Below the pieces are notes generated by a model. It saw only the letters and a program-made list of their open reading frames with translations. It had not been told where the DNA came from and did no database searches. A stretch of DNA of 64,000 bases. Origin: Terriglobia bacterium. Its GTDB lineage: Bacteria > Acidobacteriota > Terriglobia > Bryobacterales > Bryobacteraceae. The stretch spans positions 372,001-436,000 of the forward strand of contig JAJPHN010000006.1 of NCBI GenBank assembly GCA_021325235.1, given 5' to 3'. The position numbers and the translations under genes were made by a program. Positions 7,167 to 26,967 of this stretch are shown here, piece after piece; the first letter of the stretch is position 1, and the number at the start of each line of letters is the position of its first letter.

Positions 7167-7255
7167 GGACAGGTGGGTGAGTGGTTAAAGCCAACAGACT
7201 GTAAATCTGTCCCTCCTTGCGAGGTACGAAGGTTCGAATCCTTCCCTGTCCACCA
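7167..7255 (+). tRNA. tRNA-Tyr (anticodon GTA)
   Basis: The acceptor stem GGACAGG (7167-7173) pairs with CCTGTCC (7245-7251), followed by discriminator A and an encoded CCA (7253-7255). The anticodon stem-loop AGACTGTAAATCT presents GTA, which reads tyrosine codons. A long variable arm precedes the GGTTCGAATCC T-arm, as expected for a bacterial tRNA-Tyr. Confidence 0.96.
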
Positions 7256-7275
7256 GTTTTCTGAGTGCGTCCGAA

Positions 7276-7351
<76 letters not shown>

Positions 7352-7416
7352 TTTCCTGTTAGCATCCGCCCTAAGCAAGCGATCGAAGCAGTTCCGCGCA
7401 GACGCTCGCCCTCGTG

Positions 7417-7493
<77 letters not shown>

Positions 7494-10880: not shown

Positions 10881-12059
10881 ATGCACTTCGCCACCATCCC
10901 CGAGGCCATTGAAGACTTCCGGCAGGGGAGGGTACTGATCATCGTCGATGACGAGGATCGCGAAAACGAAGGCGATCTGACCATTGCTGCCGAAAAAATC
11001 ACGCCGGAAGCGATCAACTTCATGGCCACGCATGGCCGGGGACTGATTTGTCTCGCGCTTGATGCCGAGATCTGCCGGCGGCTTGATCTGCAGCCTATGT
11101 CGGCTGTCAATACCGCGCGTTTTGCAACTGCCTTCTGCGAAGCGGTGGATGCGGCCGACGGTATAACGACGGGCATTTCGGCATACGATCGGGCGCATAC
11201 CATCCGCGTCGCCATGGATCCAAAGAGCCGGCCGCAGGATCTGGCGCGTCCCGGCCATGTGTTCCCGTTGCGCGCGCGTCCTGGCGGCGTGTTGGTGCGC
11301 TCGGGACAGACCGAAGCTGCGGTCGATCTTGCTCGATTGGCCGGTTTGCAGCCGGGCGGCGTCATCTGCGAAATCATGAACGAGGACGGAACCATGGCGC
11401 GCGTTCCGCAACTCGTGGAATTCTGCAAGCGCTACGGCCTGAAGATGATTTCCGTGGCGGACCTGATCCGTTACCGCCTCCATAATGAGCGCTTCATCGA
11501 ACTGGACGGTGAAGGACAGATCCGCACCGCTTACGGAGAGTTCAGAGTGCTGCGCTTCGTTAGCCGGATCGACAACGAAACGCACCTCGCGCTGGTTCAC
11601 GGCGAGATTGCGGGTAAAGAGAACGTTTTAGTGCGTGTGCATTCGCACTGCGTTTACGGTGATGTATTCAGTTCGCTCGATTGCGATTGTCACTCGCTTA
11701 TCCCAAGCGCGCTCGAAGCGATCGTGCGTGCCGGAGCCGGCGTTTTTGTCTACCTCCACCAGACGGGAGCCGGTCTTCAGGTTACGTGGCACGAAGGCAA
11801 ACGCGAGCTGATCGGACACTCGCGCGCACAAACTAGTTTCACTGCTTCCGAGCGCCATCAGCCGATGCAGCACGAGATCGGACTCGGCGCACAGATTCTC
11901 TCGTCGCTCGGCCTCTCGACCATTCACCTGCTTACGAATCACCCCCGCAAAGTTGTCGGCCTGGAAGGCTTCGGGATTCAGATCACGCGGCAGGTGCCGC
12001 TGTCGCTCGATGCCGCCGCGCCGAAACCAGAAACGCCAGTCAATGCCGGTTCCGTTTAA
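10881..12059 (+). CDS. ribBA: RibBA: DHBP synthase with degenerate GTP cyclohydrolase II half
   Basis: The 392-residue protein begins with a 3,4-dihydroxy-2-butanone-4-phosphate synthase domain (residues about 1-205) with the expected DDEDRENEGDL, MATHGRGLICL and HVFPLRARPGGVL motifs. The C-terminal GTP cyclohydrolase II-like domain (about 206-370) keeps the three zinc cysteines (257, 268, 270) and the late GLEGFGIQI. However, the normally invariant RQEGRGIG loop reads HQTGAGLQ (293-300), and the DTVEAN-x-LGF stretch is not recognisable. The DHBP synthase is likely active. The cyclohydrolase activity is doubtful and may be supplied by another gene. It overlaps thiE by 17 bases. Confidence 0.85.
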   Translation: MHFATIPEAIEDFRQGRVLIIVDDEDRENEGDLTIAAEKITPEAINFMATHGRGLICLALDAEICRRLDLQPMSAVNTARFATAFCEAVDAADGITTGISAYDRAHTIRVAMDPKSRPQDLARPGHVFPLRARPGGVLVRSGQTEAAVDLARLAGLQPGGVICEIMNEDGTMARVPQLVEFCKRYGLKMISVADLIRYRLHNERFIELDGEGQIRTAYGEFRVLRFVSRIDNETHLALVHGEIAGKENVLVRVHSHCVYGDVFSSLDCDCHSLIPSALEAIVRAGAGVFVYLHQTGAGLQVTWHEGKRELIGHSRAQTSFTASERHQPMQHEIGLGAQILSSLGLSTIHLLTNHPRKVVGLEGFGIQITRQVPLSLDAAAPKPETPVNAGSV

Positions 12060-15634: not shown

Positions 15635-15689
15635 CTTTCCGCCTCACAACTGTTCCGCGCAGAAACCACAGGTTGCAATTGCCAGGAAG

Positions 15690-15703
15690 GCTGCTCGAGC
15701 AGC
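15690..15703. promoter_or_regulatory. 14-bp palindrome in divergent intergenic region
   Basis: GCTGCTCGAGCAGC is a perfect palindrome located 30 bases before the M1 peptidase start and 56 bases from the MFS start. It is the only strong symmetric element in this divergent region, so it may be an operator for either gene. The function is inferred from position only. Confidence 0.3.
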
Positions 15704-15732
15704 GGCGTCTTACCATACAAGGGAAAGCTTCT

Positions 15733-18384
15733 ATGTTTGCTGTACTGCGTCCTCTGTTTCCGGCAGCTGCATTTGTCGCCGCTGCCGCGCTGCTCCCTGC
15801 TGCCGATACGCCGCCTGAATTGCGCCTGCCGGGTGATGTTGTACCGGCTGGCTATCGTGCGACGCTGAAGCTCGATCCCACGCAGTCAATCTTCACCGGC
15901 GATATCCACATCGAGCTGAACATCAAGCAGCCGACCCGGACGATCTGGCTCAATGCTTCGCAAATCGAGATTCAAAGCGCAAAACTGACGCGCAACGGCT
16001 CGGCCACCAACGCTTCGCCGGTGCCGGGCAACAAGGATTTCCTTGGTGTCCAGTTGCCCCAGGCAGTTGAACCCGGTCCGGCCGAGCTCGAAATCGAATA
16101 TACCGCCCACGTGCGGCACGGCGCCAGCGCTGGCGTGTTCAGCATGGAGCAGGACGGCAACAAGTTTCTCTTTACACAATTCGAGAGCACCGATGCCCGG
16201 GATGCGTTCCCGTGTTTCGACGAGCCTTCTTACAAGGTGCCTTGGCAGCTCACGCTAACGATTCCCGCCGATGATGATGCGGTCAGCAACACCGATCCCG
16301 GCTCGACCGAGTCTCACGGCCCTGAGAAGACGCTGCACTTCAACCGCACGAAGCCGCTGCCGAGCTATCTGGTCGCATTCGCGGTCGGCAAATTCGACTT
16401 CGTGCCCGCTGGATACGCCGGAAAAAATCGTGCCCCGGTGCGTATCGTGACTCCGCGCGGTCATGCGCGTGAAGCGCAGTACGCCGCTGAAGTCACCGCA
16501 ACCATCCTGACGCGCCTCGAAGATTATTTCGGCATCCCATTTCCCTACGAGAAGTCCGACCAGGTAGCTATTCCGGTGACGTTCGGCTTCGGCGCGATGG
16601 AAAATGCCGGGATGGTGACCTACGCCGCCAATCTGCTGTTAGCGAATCCGGATCGTGATACCGAGCAGCGCCGGCGCGCCTACGCCTCGGTCGCTGCCCA
16701 CGAGCTTGCACATCAGTGGTTCGGCGATCTGGTGACCACGGCGTGGTGGAATGACATCTGGCTGAACGAGGCGTTCGCTACCTGGATGGAGCAAAAGCTG
16801 ATTGCGGAATGGAAACCGGAATGGGAAACGCGCTCGGCCGACGTGGATTCAAAGCTCGGCGCGCAGGCTGAAGACACGCTCACTTCAGCGCGCAAAATTC
16901 GCCAGGAGATCAAGTCCAAGGACGATATCAGCAACGCTTTCGATGGCATCACGTATCAGAAGGGCGCGGCCGTGATCGGAATGTTTGAAAACTGGGTAGG
17001 CGATGCGCAATTCCGTAAAGGCGTCCATGCGTACCTGACCAAATACGCCTTTGGTAACGCCAGCGCGCCCGAATTCCTCGCCTCCGTGAGCCAGGCGAGC
17101 GGCAAGGATATCACCGCGCCGTTCTCGAGCTTTCTGAATCAGCCCGGTGTGCCGCTGGTTTCCATGTCGCTGCGATGCGGCGGCGCTGCGCCCGTTCTGC
17201 ATCTCGAACAACGGCGTTCTCTGCCAGTCGGTGAAACTGGAGCGCACAACGAGACATGGCAGATTCCGGTTTGCGTTCGCTATGGTGCGGGCAGCACCGA
17301 GCAGCAGGCCTGCACTCTTTTCGGAGATCCGCGTGAAGACTGGAAGCTACAGGCAAAGGGTTGTCCTGCATGGGTCGAGGGCAATGCCAAAGCGGTGGGT
17401 TATTATCGCGTCGATTATCAGAACGAGTTGCTTCCGAAGTTGACATCCGACGCGAAACAGTTAAGCACACCCGAACGCGTCGATTTCCTCGGAAATGCAC
17501 AAGCGCTGGCCACCACCGGCGAACTCCCGGATGGGAAAGTACTCGGGCTGGTTCCCGAATTCAGTGGCGACCAAAGCCGCTACGTTGTGGAACGCGCCAT
17601 GGACATAGCCGGTATGCCGCGCGAGCATTTCGTGCCCGAAGAACTGCTTCCGAAATACCAGAAGTTTATCCGCGAGAATTTCGACGCGCGCGCACACGAG
17701 CTCGGCTGGCTTCCGAAGCCGGGCGAAAGCGACGACGCCAGGCTGCTGCGTCCTGCTCTCGTGCCGTTTGTCACGACCAGTGGTGGCGACGAGCAACTCG
17801 CCCGGCACGCACGTGAACTGGCACAAAAATGGGTGGCGGACCATAAAGCGATTCCGGCGGATGTCGCTCCGGCCATTCTGCGGACGGCGGCGTACTACGG
17901 CGACCGCGCATTTTTCGATCAGCTCATGACCGCACTCTCTACGTCCCACGACCGCCAGGAGCGCCGTTCCATCATAATGGCCCTGGCAAGCTTCCGCGAG
18001 CCCAACCTGCTTCGCGCCGGCATGCAGGCCGTGCTGGACGGGAAAATTCCCTTTATCGAAGGCATGCAGCTGCTCTTTGCCGGGCAGGGAAACTCCGGCA
18101 CGCGCAAAATCGCCTTCGATTTCATGAAGCAGAACTTCGATCAGCTTGCTGCCAAACGTCCGGTGGGCGGTGGTGCCGATGCCGGGGCACGCTTTGTGCG
18201 CGTCGGTTCGTCGTACTGCGATGAGCAATCCGCCAACGAGCTGAAAGATTTTTTTGAACCCCGCATCAAGCAGTTTGTCGGCGCGCCGAGGCTGCTGGCC
18301 CAGACGCTTGAAGAAATCCACGCCTGCATCGCTGAAAAGCAGGAGCAGGAGCCAAGCGTCGAAGAATTCTTGAAAGGAATCTAA
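15733..18384 (+). CDS. Secreted M1 family aminopeptidase
   Basis: The ATG at 15733 gives MFAVLRPLFPAAAFVAAAAL, a signal peptide ending near LLPAADTPP; 883 residues follow. The N-terminal beta domain leads to GAMEN at 287-291, the substrate N-terminus recognition motif, and HELAHQW with zinc ligands H323 and H327 plus the third ligand E in WLNEAFATWME. The ERAP1-like C-terminal helical domain occupies the last 350 residues. It would remove N-terminal residues from peptides in the periplasm or outside. The next gene, an M28 peptidase, starts directly after its stop codon. Confidence 0.92.
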   Translation: MFAVLRPLFPAAAFVAAAALLPAADTPPELRLPGDVVPAGYRATLKLDPTQSIFTGDIHIELNIKQPTRTIWLNASQIEIQSAKLTRNGSATNASPVPGNKDFLGVQLPQAVEPGPAELEIEYTAHVRHGASAGVFSMEQDGNKFLFTQFESTDARDAFPCFDEPSYKVPWQLTLTIPADDDAVSNTDPGSTESHGPEKTLHFNRTKPLPSYLVAFAVGKFDFVPAGYAGKNRAPVRIVTPRGHAREAQYAAEVTATILTRLEDYFGIPFPYEKSDQVAIPVTFGFGAMENAGMVTYAANLLLANPDRDTEQRRRAYASVAAHELAHQWFGDLVTTAWWNDIWLNEAFATWMEQKLIAEWKPEWETRSADVDSKLGAQAEDTLTSARKIRQEIKSKDDISNAFDGITYQKGAAVIGMFENWVGDAQFRKGVHAYLTKYAFGNASAPEFLASVSQASGKDITAPFSSFLNQPGVPLVSMSLRCGGAAPVLHLEQRRSLPVGETGAHNETWQIPVCVRYGAGSTEQQACTLFGDPREDWKLQAKGCPAWVEGNAKAVGYYRVDYQNELLPKLTSDAKQLSTPERVDFLGNAQALATTGELPDGKVLGLVPEFSGDQSRYVVERAMDIAGMPREHFVPEELLPKYQKFIRENFDARAHELGWLPKPGESDDARLLRPALVPFVTTSGGDEQLARHARELAQKWVADHKAIPADVAPAILRTAAYYGDRAFFDQLMTALSTSHDRQERRSIIMALASFREPNLLRAGMQAVLDGKIPFIEGMQLLFAGQGNSGTRKIAFDFMKQNFDQLAAKRPVGGGADAGARFVRVGSSYCDEQSANELKDFFEPRIKQFVGAPRLLAQTLEEIHACIAEKQEQEPSVEEFLKGI

Positions 18385-20655
18385 GTGCGACTCGCCCTTT
18401 TCGCCTTTATCGGTTCCCTGGTTCTGCCTGCTTTTGCGAATACAAATGCCACGCTCGATGGCTACACGCCTCAATCCAGCGACGCCGAGCGCGCGCTCGA
18501 GACGAAATTTCGCGCCATGCCGTCGCCTGAAAAACAGCGCGAGTATATGAAGCTGCTGTCTGCGCGCCCGCATCACGTCGGCTCGCCATACGACAAGCAA
18601 AACGCCGAATGGCTGCTGGCGCGCTTCAAGGAATGGGGTTTCGACGCAAAAATCGAAAACTTCGACGTCCTCTTTCCCACGCCGAACGGCAATCGAGTCG
18701 AAATGATCGAGCCGAAGCACTTCGTGGCAAAGCTTTCGGAGCCGCCGCTTGCCGTGGATCCGACAAGCTCGCAACGGGATGAACAACTGCCCGCCTACAA
18801 TGCCTACTCAATCGACGGCGATGTCACCGGACCGCTTGTCTATGTGAACTACGGCATGCCCGACGACTATAAGGAGCTCGAGCGGTACGGCGTTTCGGTT
18901 AAGGGCGCGATCGTAATCGCACGTTACGGCGCTGGCTGGCGCGGCATCAAGCCCAAAGTCGCGGCCGAGCACGGCGCCCTCGGTTGCATCATCTATTCCG
19001 ACCCGCACGACGACGGCTACGCGCACGGTGATGTATTTCCGCGCGGCCCGTTTCGCCCGCCGGAGGGAATCCAGCGCGGCTCTGTCATGGACACCGACTA
19101 TCCCGGCGACCCGCTTACACCCGGTGTTGCGGCCCTGCCCGGAGCAAAGCGCCTGAGCGTTGCAGAAGCACCAACCATCACCAAGATCCCGGTATTGCCA
19201 ATGTCCTATGGCGACGCCGAGCCGCTGCTCGCCGAACTTCGTGGCCGCGTAGTGCCACCGAACTGGCGCGGCAGCCTGGGCATTACCTATCGCTTCGGTC
19301 CCGGACCGGCGAAAGTACATCTGCGCGTCAAATCGAACTGGGATCAGAAGCGCCTATACGACGTGATCGCGAAAATTCCAGGATCCGAGTTGCCCGATCA
19401 ATGGGTGATTCGCGGAAATCATCACGATGCCTGGGTGAACGGCGCGGAAGATCCAATCTCCGGGCTCGTGGCCGAACTTGAAGAAGCGCGCGCACTCGGC
19501 GAACTGCTCAAACAGGGCTGGAAACCGAAGCGGACGATCATCTATGCTGCCTGGGACGGTGAAGAACCCGGCTTACTCGGCTCGACCGAGTGGGTCGAAG
19601 CTCATGCCGATGAGTTGCGCCAGCATGCGGTGGCTTATCTCAACAGCGATTCGAATGCTCGCGGCTACTTCGGTGCCGATGGTTCCCATGTACTGCAGAA
19701 GCTGATCAACGATGTGGCACGCGACGTGCCCGATCCCGAGAAAAAGATGTCCGTGCTCGATCGTGCCCGCCTGCGCGAAGTCGATGAAGCGAAGACGACC
19801 GAATCGCGGGAAGAAGCGCTTAAACGAGGCGATCTGCGTATCGGTGCGCTCGGCGATGGCTCCGACTACACCGCTTTTATCAATCACATCGGCATTCCCG
19901 CCGCTGACCTCGGTTTTGGCGGAGAAGCCAGCGGCGGCATTTATCACTCCATCTATGACGATTTCTACTGGTACACACATTTCGGCGATCCTGACTTCGC
20001 CTACGAAAAGGCGGAGTCGCAGGTAATCGGCTCAACCGTCCTTCGTCTAGCCGATGCTGAGGTGATTCCGTTCGATTTTGTCGGATTCTCAGAGATGATG
20101 AAGAAGTACGCCTCAAACGTGCAGGAGTTGCTCGAGAATGATCAGGCGGAATTTCGCGAGCGCAATAAGGAGCTTGAAGAAGGCGTCTTTGATGCGGTCA
20201 GCGATCCGACCAAACCGCTGAATCCGCCCCCCGCCGTGAAGGTTCCTCCGCACTTTAATTTCGCCCCCTTGCAGAATGCGCTCGACGCACTCTCCGATAG
20301 CGCGGAAAAGCTTTCAAAGGCATGGAACAAGGCGGAGTCGAATGGCTGGTCGTTGCCGGCGGCGAGTATCGCGCGCGTGAATGAACTTCTCATGCAGAGC
20401 GGTCCTGCGCTGCTCGATCAAGCCGGTCTGCCCCACCGCCCCTGGTTCAAGAACATGATCTATGCGCCGGGCGCTTACACGGGTTACGAAGCGAAACCGC
20501 TGCCCGGCGTGCTTGAAGCGCTCGACCGGCACGACTGGGCGGAAGCCGAATCGCAGATTCCGCGCGAAGCCGACGCTCTGATGCGCGAAACAAGAATCAT
20601 CAACCAGATCACCGCTGTCTTGAATGCGGAGCCGCGGCCATCATCTTCGCGTTAG
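18385..20655 (+). CDS. Secreted M28 peptidase, glutamate carboxypeptidase II-like
   Basis: The GTG at 18385 abuts the preceding stop. A signal peptide (MRLALFAFIGSLVLPAFA) precedes 756 residues arranged as in PSMA/GCPII: protease-associated domain (about 120-330), M28 catalytic domain (about 320-570) and a transferrin-receptor-like dimerisation domain at the end. Dizinc ligands fit H346 and D356 in NHHDAWVNGAED, E393/E394 in WDGEEPG, D in YLNSDSN and a late H in GIYHSIYDDFYW. It probably works with the M1 peptidase on extracellular peptides. Confidence 0.92.
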   Translation: MRLALFAFIGSLVLPAFANTNATLDGYTPQSSDAERALETKFRAMPSPEKQREYMKLLSARPHHVGSPYDKQNAEWLLARFKEWGFDAKIENFDVLFPTPNGNRVEMIEPKHFVAKLSEPPLAVDPTSSQRDEQLPAYNAYSIDGDVTGPLVYVNYGMPDDYKELERYGVSVKGAIVIARYGAGWRGIKPKVAAEHGALGCIIYSDPHDDGYAHGDVFPRGPFRPPEGIQRGSVMDTDYPGDPLTPGVAALPGAKRLSVAEAPTITKIPVLPMSYGDAEPLLAELRGRVVPPNWRGSLGITYRFGPGPAKVHLRVKSNWDQKRLYDVIAKIPGSELPDQWVIRGNHHDAWVNGAEDPISGLVAELEEARALGELLKQGWKPKRTIIYAAWDGEEPGLLGSTEWVEAHADELRQHAVAYLNSDSNARGYFGADGSHVLQKLINDVARDVPDPEKKMSVLDRARLREVDEAKTTESREEALKRGDLRIGALGDGSDYTAFINHIGIPAADLGFGGEASGGIYHSIYDDFYWYTHFGDPDFAYEKAESQVIGSTVLRLADAEVIPFDFVGFSEMMKKYASNVQELLENDQAEFRERNKELEEGVFDAVSDPTKPLNPPPAVKVPPHFNFAPLQNALDALSDSAEKLSKAWNKAESNGWSLPAASIARVNELLMQSGPALLDQAGLPHRPWFKNMIYAPGAYTGYEAKPLPGVLEALDRHDWAEAESQIPREADALMRETRIINQITAVLNAEPRPSSSR

Positions 20656-20657
20656 TT

Positions 20658-21035
20658 ATGATTCGGCTCACAGTTGTTCTTCGCCTGCTGCTTCGGATTT
20701 CCGGCGTACTCGCGCTCGCTCTTGGAATCGCGTTGTGGACCGGCCACGGCTATCAGTACCTGAAAGTTCATATGTGGCTGGGCTTCGTTCTCACATTCGA
20801 TCTTCTGCTGCTCGCCATCGTGGCGATCTTCGCCCGTGTTCAGCCGGTTCTGGGGCTCGTCTCGATCGTTTGGGCTGCTTCCGTTCCGGTGATCGGTATC
20901 GCGCAGATGCGGATTGTGCCCGGCTCGAATCATTGGATGATTGAGGTCCTGCACTTCATCCTCGGTCTCGGTGCGATTGCGCTCGGCGAGTCGCTGGCCA
21001 AGCGCGCCCTGCTACGCCTGCGCAGCGGCGTGTGA
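20658..21035 (+). CDS. Small four-helix membrane protein
   Basis: The 125-residue protein is almost wholly hydrophobic, with four segments (about 7-27, 36-59, 63-82, 93-112). No named family is recognised. It begins two bases after the M28 stop, and its last codons overlap the start of the Cas6-like gene (GTGA at 21032-21035). The C-terminus RALLRLRSGV is basic and probably cytoplasmic. A link to either neighbour is unproven. Confidence 0.72.
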   Translation: MIRLTVVLRLLLRISGVLALALGIALWTGHGYQYLKVHMWLGFVLTFDLLLLAIVAIFARVQPVLGLVSIVWAASVPVIGIAQMRIVPGSNHWMIEVLHFILGLGAIALGESLAKRALLRLRSGV

Positions 21036-21775
21036 TTTTTCAAGTTGCCATTACGCGCTTCGAGACCCCCGAAAGACTGACCCCCAACAGCGCAAATTTT
21101 TTTCGCGGTGTCCTGGGTGCTGTTCTCCATCGAGATATGGAACTCTACCGCAAGTGCTTCGATCCGGGATGGGCCTCCGGGCCGAGCGGCTATCGCAATG
21201 CGCCGCGCCCGTTCGTGCTTCGCCATCGGGAACGCAATCTCGAATTGATCACCTTCAGTTCGGAGTCGCACAACACCTTTGTTCACGGGCTTTTGCTCGC
21301 CTGCCCGATGGAAATCCAAACCGCCGAGAGCCTTACGCTCGATGCAGCAGGGAAGGAGTGGAGCGGCCGTGCCCGACTCGCATTCATCAGCCCGACAGCA
21401 CTGAAGTCGGGCGGCGCGATCGCCGAAAAACCGGAGTTCAAGATACTCCTCCCGCGTCTGGCCGAGCGCATTTCCGCGCTTGGGCGCTTGTACCAGGAGT
21501 GGCCAGCGAGTCTCGATTTATCTGAGCTCGCACACGCTGCAGCGCGCGTTGAACTGCTCGGCTACGAATGGAATCCCGTCAGCGGTGAGCGCCGGCAAAG
21601 CGCCCGCTCCGGCCACTCGCACGACCTGCGCGGATATACCGGCTGGGCCGAGTATGCGGGCCCGCTTGGCCGTTTGATGCCGCTTCTGGAAATCGGCCGC
21701 TACACGGGCGTGGGCCGGAACACCGTCTGGGGCAACGGCGAGATTCGGATAATAGAATCGTCGATAGACCAATGA
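21032..21775 (+). CDS. Cas6-like RAMP endoribonuclease (solitary)
   Basis: The 247-residue protein starts with GTG at 21032, overlapping the upstream stop. It resembles the stand-alone CRISPR pre-crRNA processing Cas6 family: an N-terminal ferredoxin-like half with NFFRGVLGAVLH and then a SGPSGYRNAPRPFVLR-type segment, and a C-terminal half with LRGYTGWAEYAGPLGRLMPL and the RAMP glycine-rich loop GRYTGVGRNTVWGNG at 222-236. Cas6 cleaves CRISPR repeat RNA. No other cas gene and no repeat array occur in the window, so it may serve a distant CRISPR locus or another RNA. It is coupled to the amidase gene by an ATGA overlap. Confidence 0.78.
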   Translation: MIFQVAITRFETPERLTPNSANFFRGVLGAVLHRDMELYRKCFDPGWASGPSGYRNAPRPFVLRHRERNLELITFSSESHNTFVHGLLLACPMEIQTAESLTLDAAGKEWSGRARLAFISPTALKSGGAIAEKPEFKILLPRLAERISALGRLYQEWPASLDLSELAHAAARVELLGYEWNPVSGERRQSARSGHSHDLRGYTGWAEYAGPLGRLMPLLEIGRYTGVGRNTVWGNGEIRIIESSIDQ

Positions 21776-23232
21776 ACACCGGTCTCACACGCCGCACTCT
21801 CCTGGCGGGCACCGCTGCCGCTTCCGTCCTGAACGCACTCCCCGCCTCGAATACAGATCCGGCAGATTGGACCCTGCTCGAGGCATCAGCTGCGCTTTCG
21901 AAACGGCGCATCTCGTCATTGGAGCTGACCGAGTGCCTGCTCGATCGCATTCGTAAGATTGACCCAAAGCTGAACGCGTTCATAACCCTGACCGCCGATC
22001 AGGCTCTCGCCGAAGCGCGAAACTACGACGAAAAACGCAACGCCCAAGGCAGCCCCTTGCGCGGTATCCCGATCGCGTTGAAAGACAACATCGACACCGC
22101 GGGACTGAAGACAACTGCCGCCAGCCGCGTTTTCGCAGATCGCGTGCCTGCGCAGGATGCCGACGTGACGCGCCGATTGAAGCAAGCCGGCATTGTGCTT
22201 CTTGGCAAACTCAATCTGGATGAAATGGCGTTTGAGGGTACGGGTACAACCAGCTGTTTCGGACCTGTCCACAATCCTTGGAGTCTGTCGCGCATCACCG
22301 GCGGATCCTCTGCGGGATCAGCGGCGGCCGTCTCCTCCGGTCTTTGTTTCGCCTCTGTTGGCAGCGACGATGGCGGCTCGGTACGCATCCCGGGTGCGTT
22401 CTGCGGTGTCGTTGGGTTCAAGACGACGTATGGCCGAGTGAGCACGCGCGGAGTTGTGCCTTCCGCTTATTCGCTCGATACCATCGGCCCGATCACGCGC
22501 ACGGTCGAGGATGCCGCCGTTATGCTGCAGGTGCTCGCAGGCTTCGATCCGCTCGATTCAATCACGCTCAACGTTCCGGTTCCGAACTATCTTGAAGCCA
22601 TCGGCCAACCCATCAGTGATCTGCGTGTCGGCATCCCGCGCGACTACTTTTTCGAGCAATTACATCCCGATGTCGCGACGCGCATTGAAGAAGCCGTTGC
22701 CGTTCTCGAGCCGAAAGTGAAGAGCACACGCGAGGTGAAGCTGCCGCGCTTCCAGTTTGTCGAAAATGGAGATTACAACGTCGAGCTCTACCATTATCAG
22801 AAGCAATTCTTCGACAAAACGCCCGAACTCTACCATCCGTGGTCCCGCGAAGAGCTGGACGACGTAAAGAATGTACAGACCGTTCCCTACATCGAGACCC
22901 TGAAGCGAATTCGTGAGTGTCGGCGCGATATCCGGCTCATCTTTGAAGATGTAGATGTTCTGCTGCTTCCGACCATGCGTGAGCCAGCGCCGCTCATTAC
23001 AGAAACCATAAATCGCACCCATAAACGGCCGCCCAGCAATACCAGCGCCTTCAATCGATTCGGCACGCCCGCGATGACGGTGCCCTGCGGACTCTCGCGC
23101 GACGGCCTGCCCGTGGGGCTTCAAATCGTAGGTCCGGCCTTTGCGGAAAAGCGCGTGCTTTCGGTGGCGTACGCGTACCAGCAGGCTGTCCCATTCCACC
23201 GTCAGTTCAAACCGCAATTCCGGGAGGCATGA
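21772..23232 (+). CDS. Amidase signature enzyme, probably exported
   Basis: The 486-residue protein overlaps the Cas6-like gene by four bases. Its N-terminus MNTGLTRRTLLAGTAAASVL looks like a Tat signal (R-R-T-L-L-A-G). Amidase signature residues are present: catalytic Lys in IALKDNIDTAG, the cis-Ser in SVGSDDGGSVRIPG and the nucleophile region TGGSSAGSAAAVSSG. It resembles GatA-like amidases, but the signal and absence of gatB/gatC make a tRNA role unlikely. The substrate is unknown. It overlaps the downstream iron-sulfur subunit gene by four bases, so amide hydrolysis may feed the molybdenum hydroxylase. Confidence 0.88.
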   Translation: MNTGLTRRTLLAGTAAASVLNALPASNTDPADWTLLEASAALSKRRISSLELTECLLDRIRKIDPKLNAFITLTADQALAEARNYDEKRNAQGSPLRGIPIALKDNIDTAGLKTTAASRVFADRVPAQDADVTRRLKQAGIVLLGKLNLDEMAFEGTGTTSCFGPVHNPWSLSRITGGSSAGSAAAVSSGLCFASVGSDDGGSVRIPGAFCGVVGFKTTYGRVSTRGVVPSAYSLDTIGPITRTVEDAAVMLQVLAGFDPLDSITLNVPVPNYLEAIGQPISDLRVGIPRDYFFEQLHPDVATRIEEAVAVLEPKVKSTREVKLPRFQFVENGDYNVELYHYQKQFFDKTPELYHPWSREELDDVKNVQTVPYIETLKRIRECRRDIRLIFEDVDVLLLPTMREPAPLITETINRTHKRPPSNTSAFNRFGTPAMTVPCGLSRDGLPVGLQIVGPAFAEKRVLSVAYAYQQAVPFHRQFKPQFREA

Positions 23233-23690
23233 TGCTCACCATCAACGGTACGAAACACCACGTCGCAGCGGACCCCTCGACACCGCTGCTGTTTGTATTG
23301 CGCGAGGAACTCCAGCTGACGGGTGCCAAGCCCGGGTGCGGCGAAGGGCAGTGCGGCGCCTGCACTGTTCTGGTTGGTGGCGAACCGGTGCACGCCTGTC
23401 TGACCACCGTTGCACAAGTCGGCGAACGGCCCGTCGAGACAATTGAGGGGCTCAGCAACAAGCCCGCATTCCAACGCATACAGCAGGCATTTCTGGAGGC
23501 CGGCGCTTTTCAGTGTGGCTATTGCACGCCGGGCATGGTAGTGGCCGTGTCGGCGCTGTTGCGAAAAAATCCGCACCCGAGTGCACCGGAGATTCGAAGT
23601 GCGCTTGAGGGCAACATTTGCCGGTGCGGTACCTACAATCGGATCGTTAAAGCGGTCCAGAAAGCGGCAGAGGTGAGCTCAAATGCTTGA
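23229..23690 (+). CDS. Molybdenum hydroxylase 2Fe-2S subunit
   Basis: The 153-residue protein has the two iron-sulfur domains of xanthine dehydrogenase-family small subunits: a plant-ferredoxin-like cluster with CGEGQCGACTVL and a later Cys, and a helical domain with GAFQCGYCTPGMV and EGNICRCGTYNRI. It transfers electrons from the molybdopterin subunit encoded next, whose start it overlaps by eight bases. No FAD subunit follows, which is the two-subunit arrangement of isoquinoline 1-oxidoreductase/aldehyde oxidoreductase types. Confidence 0.93.
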   Translation: MMLTINGTKHHVAADPSTPLLFVLREELQLTGAKPGCGEGQCGACTVLVGGEPVHACLTTVAQVGERPVETIEGLSNKPAFQRIQQAFLEAGAFQCGYCTPGMVVAVSALLRKNPHPSAPEIRSALEGNICRCGTYNRIVKAVQKAAEVSSNA

Positions 23691-25677
23691 GATCAGCCGG
23701 AAAATCACCCGTCGCGATGCGGCGAAACGCCTCGGCGCGGGCGTGTTGTTTACGTTCACTTTCGAATCGACGAAAGCCGGCGACGCCGGAAGCGAACTGC
23801 TCAGTTCGCGAATTCATGTGGGCGATGATGGCGCAATTACCGTGCTCACCGGGAAAGTTGAAATCGGGCAGGGGATTCGGACAACACTGGCGCAGGCCGC
23901 GGCTGAAGAGCTTCGAGTCCCGTTCTCGCAGGTACGGCTCATAATGGGCGACACAGCGCTGGTACCCGACGACGGTGGTACATGGGGCAGCCTCACCACC
24001 CCGCAGACCATGCCGGTGATTCGCCAGGCCTGCGCTTCTCTCCGCGAACTGCGCGTCCGCTGCCAGGCCAAGACCTACGCCGAGCTGGCCGGAATGCCGC
24101 AGTTTTCCCAGGCTCGTGCCCAGGATTCGCCCCTCACCGACCCCAAACAATGGAAAGTTCTCGGCACACCGGTTCCGAACGTCAACGGTCCCCACATCGT
24201 CTCCGGCAAGCTCACGTATTCCTCCGACCGTTTCCCGGAAAATGTTCTGCACGGCAAGATCATTCGCGGCCCGAACTACCGGTCAAAGTTGCTGGCTTTC
24301 GACGATAGCAAGGCTCGTTCGCTGGAGGGAGTTCGCATTGTTCACGAAGAAAATTTTCTCGGCGTCACCGCACCCACTCGCGAACTGGCCGAAAAGGCCG
24401 CTCAGCTGATTGAATCGCGCTGGAGCAGCGGCGAACTGGGCGATCCGAATTTGCTTTTCGATCGTCTGCGCAGGAACGCCAAACCGGTCGAGGGGGGAGG
24501 TGGACGTTATCCCTCGCTCATCCAATCCGGTTCGGTCGAGCAGGGCCTCGCTTCAGCCCACCGTAAGCTGAATGCTACATACCAGCTCGCCTATATCGCT
24601 CATATTCCGCTCGAATGCCGCACCGCCGTCGCGCAATGGACCGGCAACCGCCTCACGGTCCATTGCGGCACGCAGGCGCCCTTCCTGGTTCGCTCCGAAA
24701 TAGCCGAATTTTTCAAAATACCTGAGGAGAACGTGCGCGTCATTGTCTCCGACACCGGCTCCGGCTACGGCGGTAAGCATGCTTCCGAATGCGAGCTCGA
24801 GGCGGCACGTCTCGCTCGCGGAATAAATCAGCCCGTACGGCTTGCCTGGACGCGCAACGAGGAGTCGACCTGTGCTCACTGCCGTCCCGCCGCTCTAATA
24901 GACGTACGCAGCGGCATCGACCAGCACGGAAAGGTGATCGCCTGGGACTTTCACAACATCAACGGCGGCCCGGCCGGTCTTACTCCGCCCTACGAGATTC
25001 CAAACCGCTTTGCAGGTTTCCATGAATCGGACTCGCCGCTGCGCCAGGGTTCCTATCGCTCGCTTGCTGCCGCCGGAAATGCCTTTGCGCGCGAGTCCCA
25101 GATCGACGAAATGGCACATCTTGCCGGCCTCGATCCGCTCGAGTTCCGTCTGCGAAATATTTCCAACGAGCGCCTCAAGACTGTTCTGCTGCGGGCTGCG
25201 GATCGATTTGGCTGGTCCGGACGAAAAGCTGCCGACGGCACCGGATACGGACTCGCCTGCAATATCGAAAAGGGCGGCCATATCGCGCTCTGCGCCGAGC
25301 TCGAAGTGCGCGCGAGCGACGTGCACCTGCGCCGCTTCGTAGCTGCTTTCGATGCTGGCGCCGTCGCGAATCCAGACATGTTGAGCAATCAGGTCGAGGG
25401 CGCTCTGGTCCAGGGTATCGGCGGCGCACTCTTCGAAGAACTGCGATTCGATCGCGACCGGATCACCAACGGCGTTCTCTCGCGCTACCGCGTGCCGCGT
25501 TTCAGCGATGTCCCCGAGATCGAGGTGATTCTTGTCGATCGCCGCGATCAACCATCCGCCGGGGCCGGTGAGTGCCCGATTACGGCTGTAGCACCGGCAA
25601 TCGCCAACGCCATCTTCTCCGCAACCGGCAAACGTATACGCGAAATGCCCATGCTACCGGCCCTGCGTCGCGCCTGA
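23683..25677 (+). CDS. Molybdopterin-binding subunit, IorB-type
   Basis: The 664-residue subunit carries a twin-arginine-like start (ITRRDAAKRLGAG) and hallmark motifs of the isoquinoline 1-oxidoreductase/aldehyde dehydrogenase group: KVEIGQGIRTTLAQ, DTGSGYGGKHASECELEA, QGSYRSLAAAGN and the C-terminal GAGECPITAVAPAIANAIF with the probable catalytic Glu. It is somewhat shorter than typical IorB (about 700-780). It would hydroxylate an aldehyde or N-heterocycle, probably in the periplasm, and pass electrons through the 2Fe-2S subunit. The preceding amidase suggests an aromatic or heterocyclic amide pathway, which is inference. Confidence 0.88.
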   Translation: MLEISRKITRRDAAKRLGAGVLFTFTFESTKAGDAGSELLSSRIHVGDDGAITVLTGKVEIGQGIRTTLAQAAAEELRVPFSQVRLIMGDTALVPDDGGTWGSLTTPQTMPVIRQACASLRELRVRCQAKTYAELAGMPQFSQARAQDSPLTDPKQWKVLGTPVPNVNGPHIVSGKLTYSSDRFPENVLHGKIIRGPNYRSKLLAFDDSKARSLEGVRIVHEENFLGVTAPTRELAEKAAQLIESRWSSGELGDPNLLFDRLRRNAKPVEGGGGRYPSLIQSGSVEQGLASAHRKLNATYQLAYIAHIPLECRTAVAQWTGNRLTVHCGTQAPFLVRSEIAEFFKIPEENVRVIVSDTGSGYGGKHASECELEAARLARGINQPVRLAWTRNEESTCAHCRPAALIDVRSGIDQHGKVIAWDFHNINGGPAGLTPPYEIPNRFAGFHESDSPLRQGSYRSLAAAGNAFARESQIDEMAHLAGLDPLEFRLRNISNERLKTVLLRAADRFGWSGRKAADGTGYGLACNIEKGGHIALCAELEVRASDVHLRRFVAAFDAGAVANPDMLSNQVEGALVQGIGGALFEELRFDRDRITNGVLSRYRVPRFSDVPEIEVILVDRRDQPSAGAGECPITAVAPAIANAIFSATGKRIREMPMLPALRRA

Positions 25678-25930: not shown

Positions 25931-26431
25931 TTACTCTGGCGGGAGAACTTCACTCAACGCGATTTCGAAATCGCGCGAACGCAGAATACCGTCGCTCACT
26001 TCTGCCGGCGGCCGGTCCTGATCGATGATCCAGGCGCGGCGCTCGTAGGGGTCCACAATCCAGACGCATGGCACACCCATGGCGATATAGTCGGCAACTT
26101 TTTGGTTCACGCGATTCCAGCGATCGTCCGGCGAGAGAACCTCGATACAGAGCAGCGGGGGTTCGCTAATAACGGGTTGAAGCTGTTCGATCACGCAGAC
26201 GTCCGGAATACGAACTCGGTACTCAGCTACCCGAACTCGCTGCTCGGGCAAAACAAGCCGCCCGCGGTCCTCCGGTAGCTTACGAATCAGCTTGCCTTGC
26301 GTATACGAATGTTTTCCCTGACCCACGTTTCTTTCCAGCACGACGCCATCTACGTACTCACAATCCGGCGAGTAGTCGGTCCGCATGTACTCGTCAAGCG
26401 AAATCGCGCTGGGAGCCGTTGCCATGTTCAT
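25931..26431 (-). CDS. Uma2 family endonuclease-like protein (DUF820)
   Basis: The ATG at 26431 overlaps the DUF488 stop (ATGA), giving MNMATAPSAISLDEYMRTDY and 166 residues. The restriction-endonuclease-like fold is visible in YVDGVVLERNVG, VRIPDVCVIEQ, PPLLCIEVLSPDDRW and the Lys of NQKVADYIAMGVPCVWIVDP, the PD-(D/E)xK arrangement of Uma2/DUF820 proteins. These are abundant in cyanobacteria and Acidobacteriota, sometimes mobile, and their biological target is unknown. Confidence 0.87.
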   Translation of the reverse strand: MNMATAPSAISLDEYMRTDYSPDCEYVDGVVLERNVGQGKHSYTQGKLIRKLPEDRGRLVLPEQRVRVAEYRVRIPDVCVIEQLQPVISEPPLLCIEVLSPDDRWNRVNQKVADYIAMGVPCVWIVDPYERRAWIIDQDRPPAEVSDGILRSRDFEIALSEVLPPE

Positions 26432-26967
26432 TCCATTGTCGCGCAATCCGCGGGTCCTGGATAAGTTATGCGCGTTCCGTCCACGGTGGCCCACTTCGTC
26501 AACGCATGCGGGCGCGAACTGGTCGCGCTCATAATCTCAATCACCTCCACGCCGCGCACCAGAAGAGCATCCGCGACCAAGGACCGGTGACAACGCCACG
26601 GCACCGCCTCCGCGCACATGATGGCAGTCTTTTGTCGCGCTGCACGTGCGATTAATTCATCGATTGCGTGCGCGAACTCCTCCGTCTGCATGTAATCGGC
26701 GTATCCGCGAAACGAGTCATTACGCCAGGCTGTGTTGATGGAATCCTTCTTGGGATGCCGCAGCCCGCCGAGTGCTCGCAGATGCACATACTCGATCCCA
26801 TTCCTCGTGAGCGAACTTCGCAATGTCTCGGTCTCAAACTGTGGGTTGCGCCGCGAGCGCGGAATCGTCCGGATATCCGCTAACAGTTCGATTCCGTATG
26901 CCTGCAGGATGCCGATGAATTCGTCCGCGCTCCGCGTCGAATGCCCAATGGTATAAACCGGAAACAT
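26428..26967 (-). CDS. DUF488 family protein
   Basis: The ATG at 26967 overlaps the penicillin-acylase stop by one base (TGATG) and yields 179 residues. DUF488 motifs are clear: YTIGHSTRSADEFIGIL, LLADIRTIPRSRRNPQF, YVHLRALGGLR and the Cys-containing CAEAVPWRCHRSLVADAL. The molecular role of the family is not established; the conserved Cys/Arg/His points to a nucleic acid or small-molecule enzyme. It sits in an overlapping chain acylase-DUF488-Uma2. Confidence 0.9.
   Translation of the reverse strand: MFPVYTIGHSTRSADEFIGILQAYGIELLADIRTIPRSRRNPQFETETLRSSLTRNGIEYVHLRALGGLRHPKKDSINTAWRNDSFRGYADYMQTEEFAHAIDELIARAARQKTAIMCAEAVPWRCHRSLVADALLVRGVEVIEIMSATSSRPHALTKWATVDGTRITYPGPADCATME

Follow-up and report, generated by a model that had tools for sequence, protein, structure and literature searches.

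The solitary cas6 gene and its neighbours

The window, a 64,000-nucleotide stretch of a Bryobacteraceae genome (G000), carries a cas6 gene at 21032-21775 on the plus strand, which starts with GTG, encodes 247 aa and was recognised by PF10040, PADLOC, AF2 modelling and Foldseek. It sits within a run of overlapping peptidase, amidase and oxidoreductase genes, all on the plus strand. The first gene of the run shown here encodes an M1 aminopeptidase (15673-18384; PF01433, E 1.8e-68), followed by an M28-type peptidase gene (18385-20655; PF04389, E 3e-17) and a small hydrophobic ORF of 125 aa (20658-21035), which had no family match in Pfam, NCBIfam or PADLOC and overlaps cas6 by GTGA. At its other end, cas6 overlaps an amidase gene (21772-23232; PF01425, E 3.6e-114) by ATGA, and the run continues 3' of the amidase with genes for a [2Fe-2S] protein (23229-23690; PF01799) and a molybdopterin oxidoreductase subunit with MoCoBD domains (23683-25677). 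A gene for a Uma2-family putative restriction-type endonuclease (PF05685) lies on the minus strand at 25934-26494. Elsewhere in the window there are three close-set tRNA matches at 7167-7493 (two on the plus strand and one on the minus strand) and a borderline Rfam match to the Vibrio RNA AS9 at 10978-11068 on the minus strand (50.8 bits against a cut-off of 50), which is probably due to chance.

The first-pass annotation, made from the window alone, had described a Cas6 with no other cas gene or array in the window, coupled by its two overlaps to a membrane protein and an amidase. The isolation was borne out, as none of the Cas1, RAMP, Csm2 or Csx1/Csm6 matches of G000 falls inside the window and an array finder detected no array in its 64 kb. 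Both overlaps were also confirmed, but a meaningful coupling was not: the neighbours differ among the cas6 loci of 20 relatives, where adjacency to the amidase is not conserved, and what the close relative G001 (locus L051) has beside its cas6 homologue is the M28 peptidase (71% identical). There were weak matches to the amidase and the membrane ORF near the G014 copy, and to the FeS and MoCo genes near the G044 copy. Judging from these comparisons, we take the peptidase and amidase genes as a probable chance transcription context of cas6, and the tie to the amidase as incidental.

The assignment to RAMP-type Cas6 agreed with both profile and structure checks. PF10040 (CRISPR_Cas6) matched residues 116-238 (E 2e-15; 57.7 bits, above the cut-off of 25) and the PADLOC Cas6 profile PDLC01477 matched with an E value of 4.7e-35; with the stricter NCBIfam equivalog TIGR01877, the protein scored 16.3 bits and did not reach the cut-off of 58.65. 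The AF2 model, built on an alignment from 47 relatives, had a mean pLDDT of 91.5 and a pTM of 0.89. In a Foldseek search of PDB with this model, ranks 1-43 (E ≤3.4e-4) were all Cas6-type proteins or CRISPR effector complexes, with 6fjw as the best match (E 1.8e-12); the tail of the list is noise, because rank 44 is a peroxidase (E 7e-4). A single-sequence search of PDB gave weak Cas6 matches. With the Cas6 profile, PDB gave no match at E 0.01 on which the catalytic residues could be aligned with those of a solved Cas6.

The protein has in common with Cas6 RAMP endoribonucleases (PF10040, PDLC01477; PDB 6fjw and 4c98) the fold, the glycine-rich loop and the RG-x-x-G and PRPFVLR-type segments; the loop and the PRPFVLR-type segment had been pointed out before and are indeed present. 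Residues R25, G26, G29, R59 and R64 are invariant across the 47 relatives, as are G226, G228, R229, W233, G234 and G236 of the loop, and Y154 and H197 are invariant as well. No canonical catalytic histidine was located. The sequence group of the window protein differs from other Cas6 in an invariant S-x-x-x-x-x-x-H (S190 and H197) near the glycine-rich C-terminus, and the window protein also stands apart in being encoded alone and in missing the TIGR01877 cut-off. It keeps 24 of the 25 columns that are invariant in the other 46 relatives. On the other hand, it is shorter than most relatives (247 aa against about 300 aa), its terminal branch in the tree is 1.46 and its closest relative, G001, is only 44% identical. 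Sequence and model together indicate that 21032-21775 is a true Cas6, apparently undamaged, and plausibly an intact enzyme that evolves more quickly and is shorter than its kin. A pattern search of the relatives' contigs with the window Cas6 alone retrieved no relative, as a single sequence that evolves this fast gives patterns of too little breadth.

Cas6 across the Bryobacteraceae

PF10040 was found in 49 of 60 genomes of the family and in 3 of 40 genomes outside it. A clade-profile search of the 11 negative family genomes gave pieces in four and nothing in seven. Of the 66 PF10040 matches, 57 were placed in a tree, where eight proteins split off with support of 100/100 and a branch length of 2.24; at least four of these eight (G017c, G026b, G042b and G067) have cas1, RAMP genes or an array as neighbours. 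The window Cas6 groups with 47 others, away from these eight of the cas-linked kind. One row, G017b, is a long outlier. Relations within the 48-member group are poorly resolved, since 26 of the 54 inner branches remain open and bootstrapping had not converged.

The first-pass annotation had weighed against its own reading the case of a gene displaced from a cas operon only here. However, 35 of the 37 group loci with longer flanks look solitary as well, with no array and no match to the cas protein set, on flanks that range from pieces of 4.9 kb to the 64-kb window and with a partial query set that missed RAMP genes placed by another search in the G023 locus. Among the group members of G000 to G035, a Cas1 or RAMP match lies near Cas6 only in G006 and G023, the two exceptions to the solitary placement. 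The G006 locus (L052:1-11237) is of type I-D, with cas10d, cas11d, cas7d, cas5d, cas3d and cas1, and its array of at least 12 units lies 2 bases from the solitary-group Cas6. The G006 repeat, allowing up to three mismatches, was absent from the other 59 genomes searched. The Cas6 of G006 clusters with those of four genus-mates and one G051 copy (93/97); thus, the I-D module may have come to the enzyme, not the reverse. In G023, an array adjoins the group Cas6, and the core csm2 described below is absent from this genome. Because members adjoin real arrays in both genomes, the group Cas6 is compatible with canonical repeats, which suggests that it can go with those of visiting systems.

The core csm operon and other type III loci

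The first-pass annotation had also suggested that the enzyme may act on RNA from a distant CRISPR locus or on some other RNA. A genome search indeed gave CRISPR-type loci, namely three type III loci on contigs C60, C49 and C55, none of them on the window contig and none with a detected array. C49 encodes a full-size Cas10, RAMP/Csm-type proteins and a CARF-HEPN protein; beside the Cas10 and Csm-type genes, it also has a cas1 match (L033:14429-15024), which falls into two pieces and contains an in-frame stop. The 10.7-kb contig C55 (L032) encodes a Cmr2-type Cas10, RAMP proteins and a CARF-HEPN protein whose end is of the Csx20 type, and no array was found on it. C60 carries the operon cas10-csm2-csm3-csm4-csm5 (L031:443-5786), and all five genes had PADLOC and Pfam matches. 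An AAA ATPase gene lies 3' of this operon and adjoins it in most relatives compared.

The array search in G000 covered the window, C49 and C55 in full, the start of each of the 60 contigs, and 19 pieces from contig ends along with other stretches (1.39 Mb, or 27.7% of the genome), and found none. A whole-genome search with two array patterns, which would miss arrays with other repeat ends, was likewise negative. An array-like start of contig C15 proved to be a 34-bp tandem repeat. The pattern search may overlook arrays, because 5 of the 16 family genomes with a cas1 match (G000, G011, G016, G024 and G028) gave none.

The Csm2 profile had a single match in each of 52 of the 60 family genomes (the G011 match counted here is a fragment) and in none of 40 genomes outside. 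A sample of 396 genomes from the phylum yielded three strong Csm2 matches, all in the family, and three weak ones elsewhere. When 17 loci were compared with that of G000, Csm2 was 70-93% and Cas10 38-65% identical; Csm2 has a nearly invariant core and a variable, RG-rich N-terminus. Csm2 and Csm3 barely vary, in contrast to the rapidly diverging Cas6, and this mismatch counts against the trans-acting role proposed below. Further examination covered the best 80 of 209 csm loci. There, cas10 is present in 79 (median length 488 aa among 73 complete) and Csm3 has an IGGxD motif in 79. The GGDD-like motif of Cas10, allowing the tolerated variants listed in the accessible text of PMC11229360, is kept in 63 and lost in 14 of 77 proteins, after two of the 79 rows were dropped for gaps. 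The C60 Cas10 is 492 aa long, and Pfam found palm2 only and no HD; its model aligns to Csm1 of solved Csm complexes, with the HD domain absent. This domain is common, though not universal, in Cas10 of type III-A.

None of the best 80 loci had cas6, cas1, a CARF-HEPN gene or an array beside csm, as seen with a small query set in flanks of up to 8 kb, many of them cut by contig ends. Three array-like matches in these loci were tandem repeats without spacers, and tandem repeats of about 67 bases lie directly upstream of the core cas10 at L048:7029-7363 and L251:6079-6413. A Csx1/Csm6-type protein (PDLC01032) was found in 2 of 36 family genomes. Across the 60 family genomes, cas6 and csm2 are both present in 44, csm2 only in 8, cas6 only in 5 and neither in 3, which is not beyond chance (Fisher p 0.15) in a test that is weak because both genes are near-universal. 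Moreover, neither PF10040 nor the clade profile detected a Cas6 in three csm2-bearing genomes that are 96-98% complete (G002, G009 and G047). Both results count against a tight pairing of cas6 and csm.

The C60-type operon shares gene order and protein families with type III-A (Csm) systems; unlike them, it lacks the Cas10 HD domain, has no cas6, cas1, CARF-HEPN gene or array found adjoining, and occurs in one copy in most genomes of one family. Reductive evolution of Cas10 as seen here is also described for types III-G, III-H and III-I in the accessible part of PMC12669027, but there the palm is inactive or lost, whereas here HD is missing and GGDD mostly kept. The same part of that source gives the palms of III-G and III-H as inactive and about 97% of Cas10s as predicted active, and reports most III-B, III-C, III-E and III-F loci as lacking arrays.

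A covarying hairpin lies in the csm leader (L031:389-445) in the genus of the window and some neighbours. Over 15 sequences, both sides had changed in 11 cells, compared with 2.2 in shuffles, and the paired share of cells was 89.3%, compared with at most 47.8% on sliding; these 15 leaders were picked by eye from 49 for sharing the hairpin, which favours the pair counts, with no control for relatedness. The hairpin is not unusual in folding energy (z -0.68 to +0.42 in five sequences). A model of the hairpin found one strong copy, at csm, in 13 of 17 genus genomes, mostly members of the training set, and otherwise weak, scattered matches; with one strong copy per genome, a dispersed repeat is ruled out. 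In the window, the model had one chance-level match (E 0.71) away from cas6 and none near it. A search for conserved ncRNA near csm (17 upstream and 16 downstream regions) yielded nothing family-wide and, in the genus and some neighbours, this leader hairpin alone. It may be a site for Cas6, it may be autoregulatory, or it may be neither of the two.

Possible roles of a resident Cas6

We lean, by a modest degree, towards a resident Bryobacteraceae Cas6 that would act in trans, maturing the guides of the core Csm complex as well as those of visiting cas modules. The enzyme would cut a repeat-type RNA hairpin and make guide ends, and its products would load into the chromosomal type III-A-like Csm complex encoded elsewhere (HD-less Cas10 and Csm2 to Csm5), where Csm would hold the guide and Csm3 would cut. 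The same Cas6 would supply acquired cas modules without their own cas6, in G000 perhaps the type III loci of C49 and C55. We infer the RNA cutting by Cas6, its RNA substrate and the transfer of the product to Csm; consistent with such a role, the window Cas6 is the sole PF10040 match in G000 (5.03 Mb in 60 contigs), a genome with three type III loci. The family-wide spread of the Cas6 group and of one-copy csm2, the conserved IGGxD of Csm3 and the arrays adjoining group members in G006 and G023 also favour it. Against it, no array that would supply a substrate was detected in G000. One Cas6 feeding several effector modules is known from Pyrococcus furiosus and Sulfolobus, according to the available portions of PMC11127173 and PMC4041471; those organisms have arrays, whereas none was detected here, where the effector is encoded by a core operon found across the family.

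A domesticated, array-independent system is a tentative alternative that we rate clearly lower. Here, the HD-less, array-less core Csm and the dispersed solitary Cas6 may act on chromosomal non-CRISPR RNA, using fixed guides or the csm leader itself, possibly its hairpin, so that host RNA would be regulated or destroyed, cut or held through Csm3. The core-gene pattern of csm favours this possibility, as do the covarying leader hairpin of related genomes, the rarity of Csx1/Csm6-type proteins and the lack of any cas6, cas1, CARF-HEPN gene or array found in the searched flanks of the 80 csm loci. Similarly, 12 of 36 family genomes have csm2 with no cas1 and no array by the two patterns, and nine of these have cas6 (lone pattern matches in G013 and G028 were excluded from this tally and the one in G009, with repeat-like sequence, was included). 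A closed Bryobacteraceae genome is reported without CRISPRs in the accessible text of PMC8759368, and the available part of PMC4041471 offers a precedent in S. solfataricus Cas6-3, which cuts a non-CRISPR RNA present in the CSM complex. The Cas10 features point both ways, in that the lost HD, and the GGDD lost in 14, fit domestication, but the motif kept in 63 of 77 suggests that signalling remains useful. Moreover, arrays with other repeat ends would escape the patterns, no guide gene was found, two members of the Cas6 group adjoin arrays, and csm occurs also where Cas6 was not found.

It is improbable that the role of Cas6 is limited to transient modules with arrays (type I-D and III) and that its co-residence with core csm is coincidental. 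The arrays beside Cas6 in G006, with its type I-D locus, and in G023, which has no core csm2, would fit this explanation, and so would the weak co-occurrence of cas6 and csm2, but Cas6 is kept in the nine genomes just mentioned, where neither cas1 nor an array was detected. A non-functional relic, which the short length and long end branch could suggest, is very unlikely in view of the retained columns, the open frame with translational overlaps to both neighbours and the confident predicted fold.

In the literature outside subscription journals, as far as its available text goes, we found no report of the solitary Cas6 group or of a core array-less Csm operon in Bryobacteraceae. The accessible portions of PMC8730458 and PMC11742911 treat exaptation and the CRISPR loci of soil Acidobacteriota and do not describe this Csm/Cas6 set.

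Whether or not the trans-acting role holds, the main context of the window gene is the family-wide Csm operon, which is invisible from one window, and the object of interest is the family-wide set of Csm and Cas6 without visible memory. As a rule, CRISPR effector genes are mobile and patchily distributed. Here, a one-copy Csm operon in most genomes of the family, with a near-invariant Csm2 core and no array found adjoining, together with a separate group of lone Cas6s, suggests a function that is worth keeping even in the absence of adaptive memory. Were the guides chromosomal, a common soil lineage would possess an RNA-guided system for regulation or surveillance. If they are not, the family would show the extent to which a resident Cas6 can uncouple from arrays.
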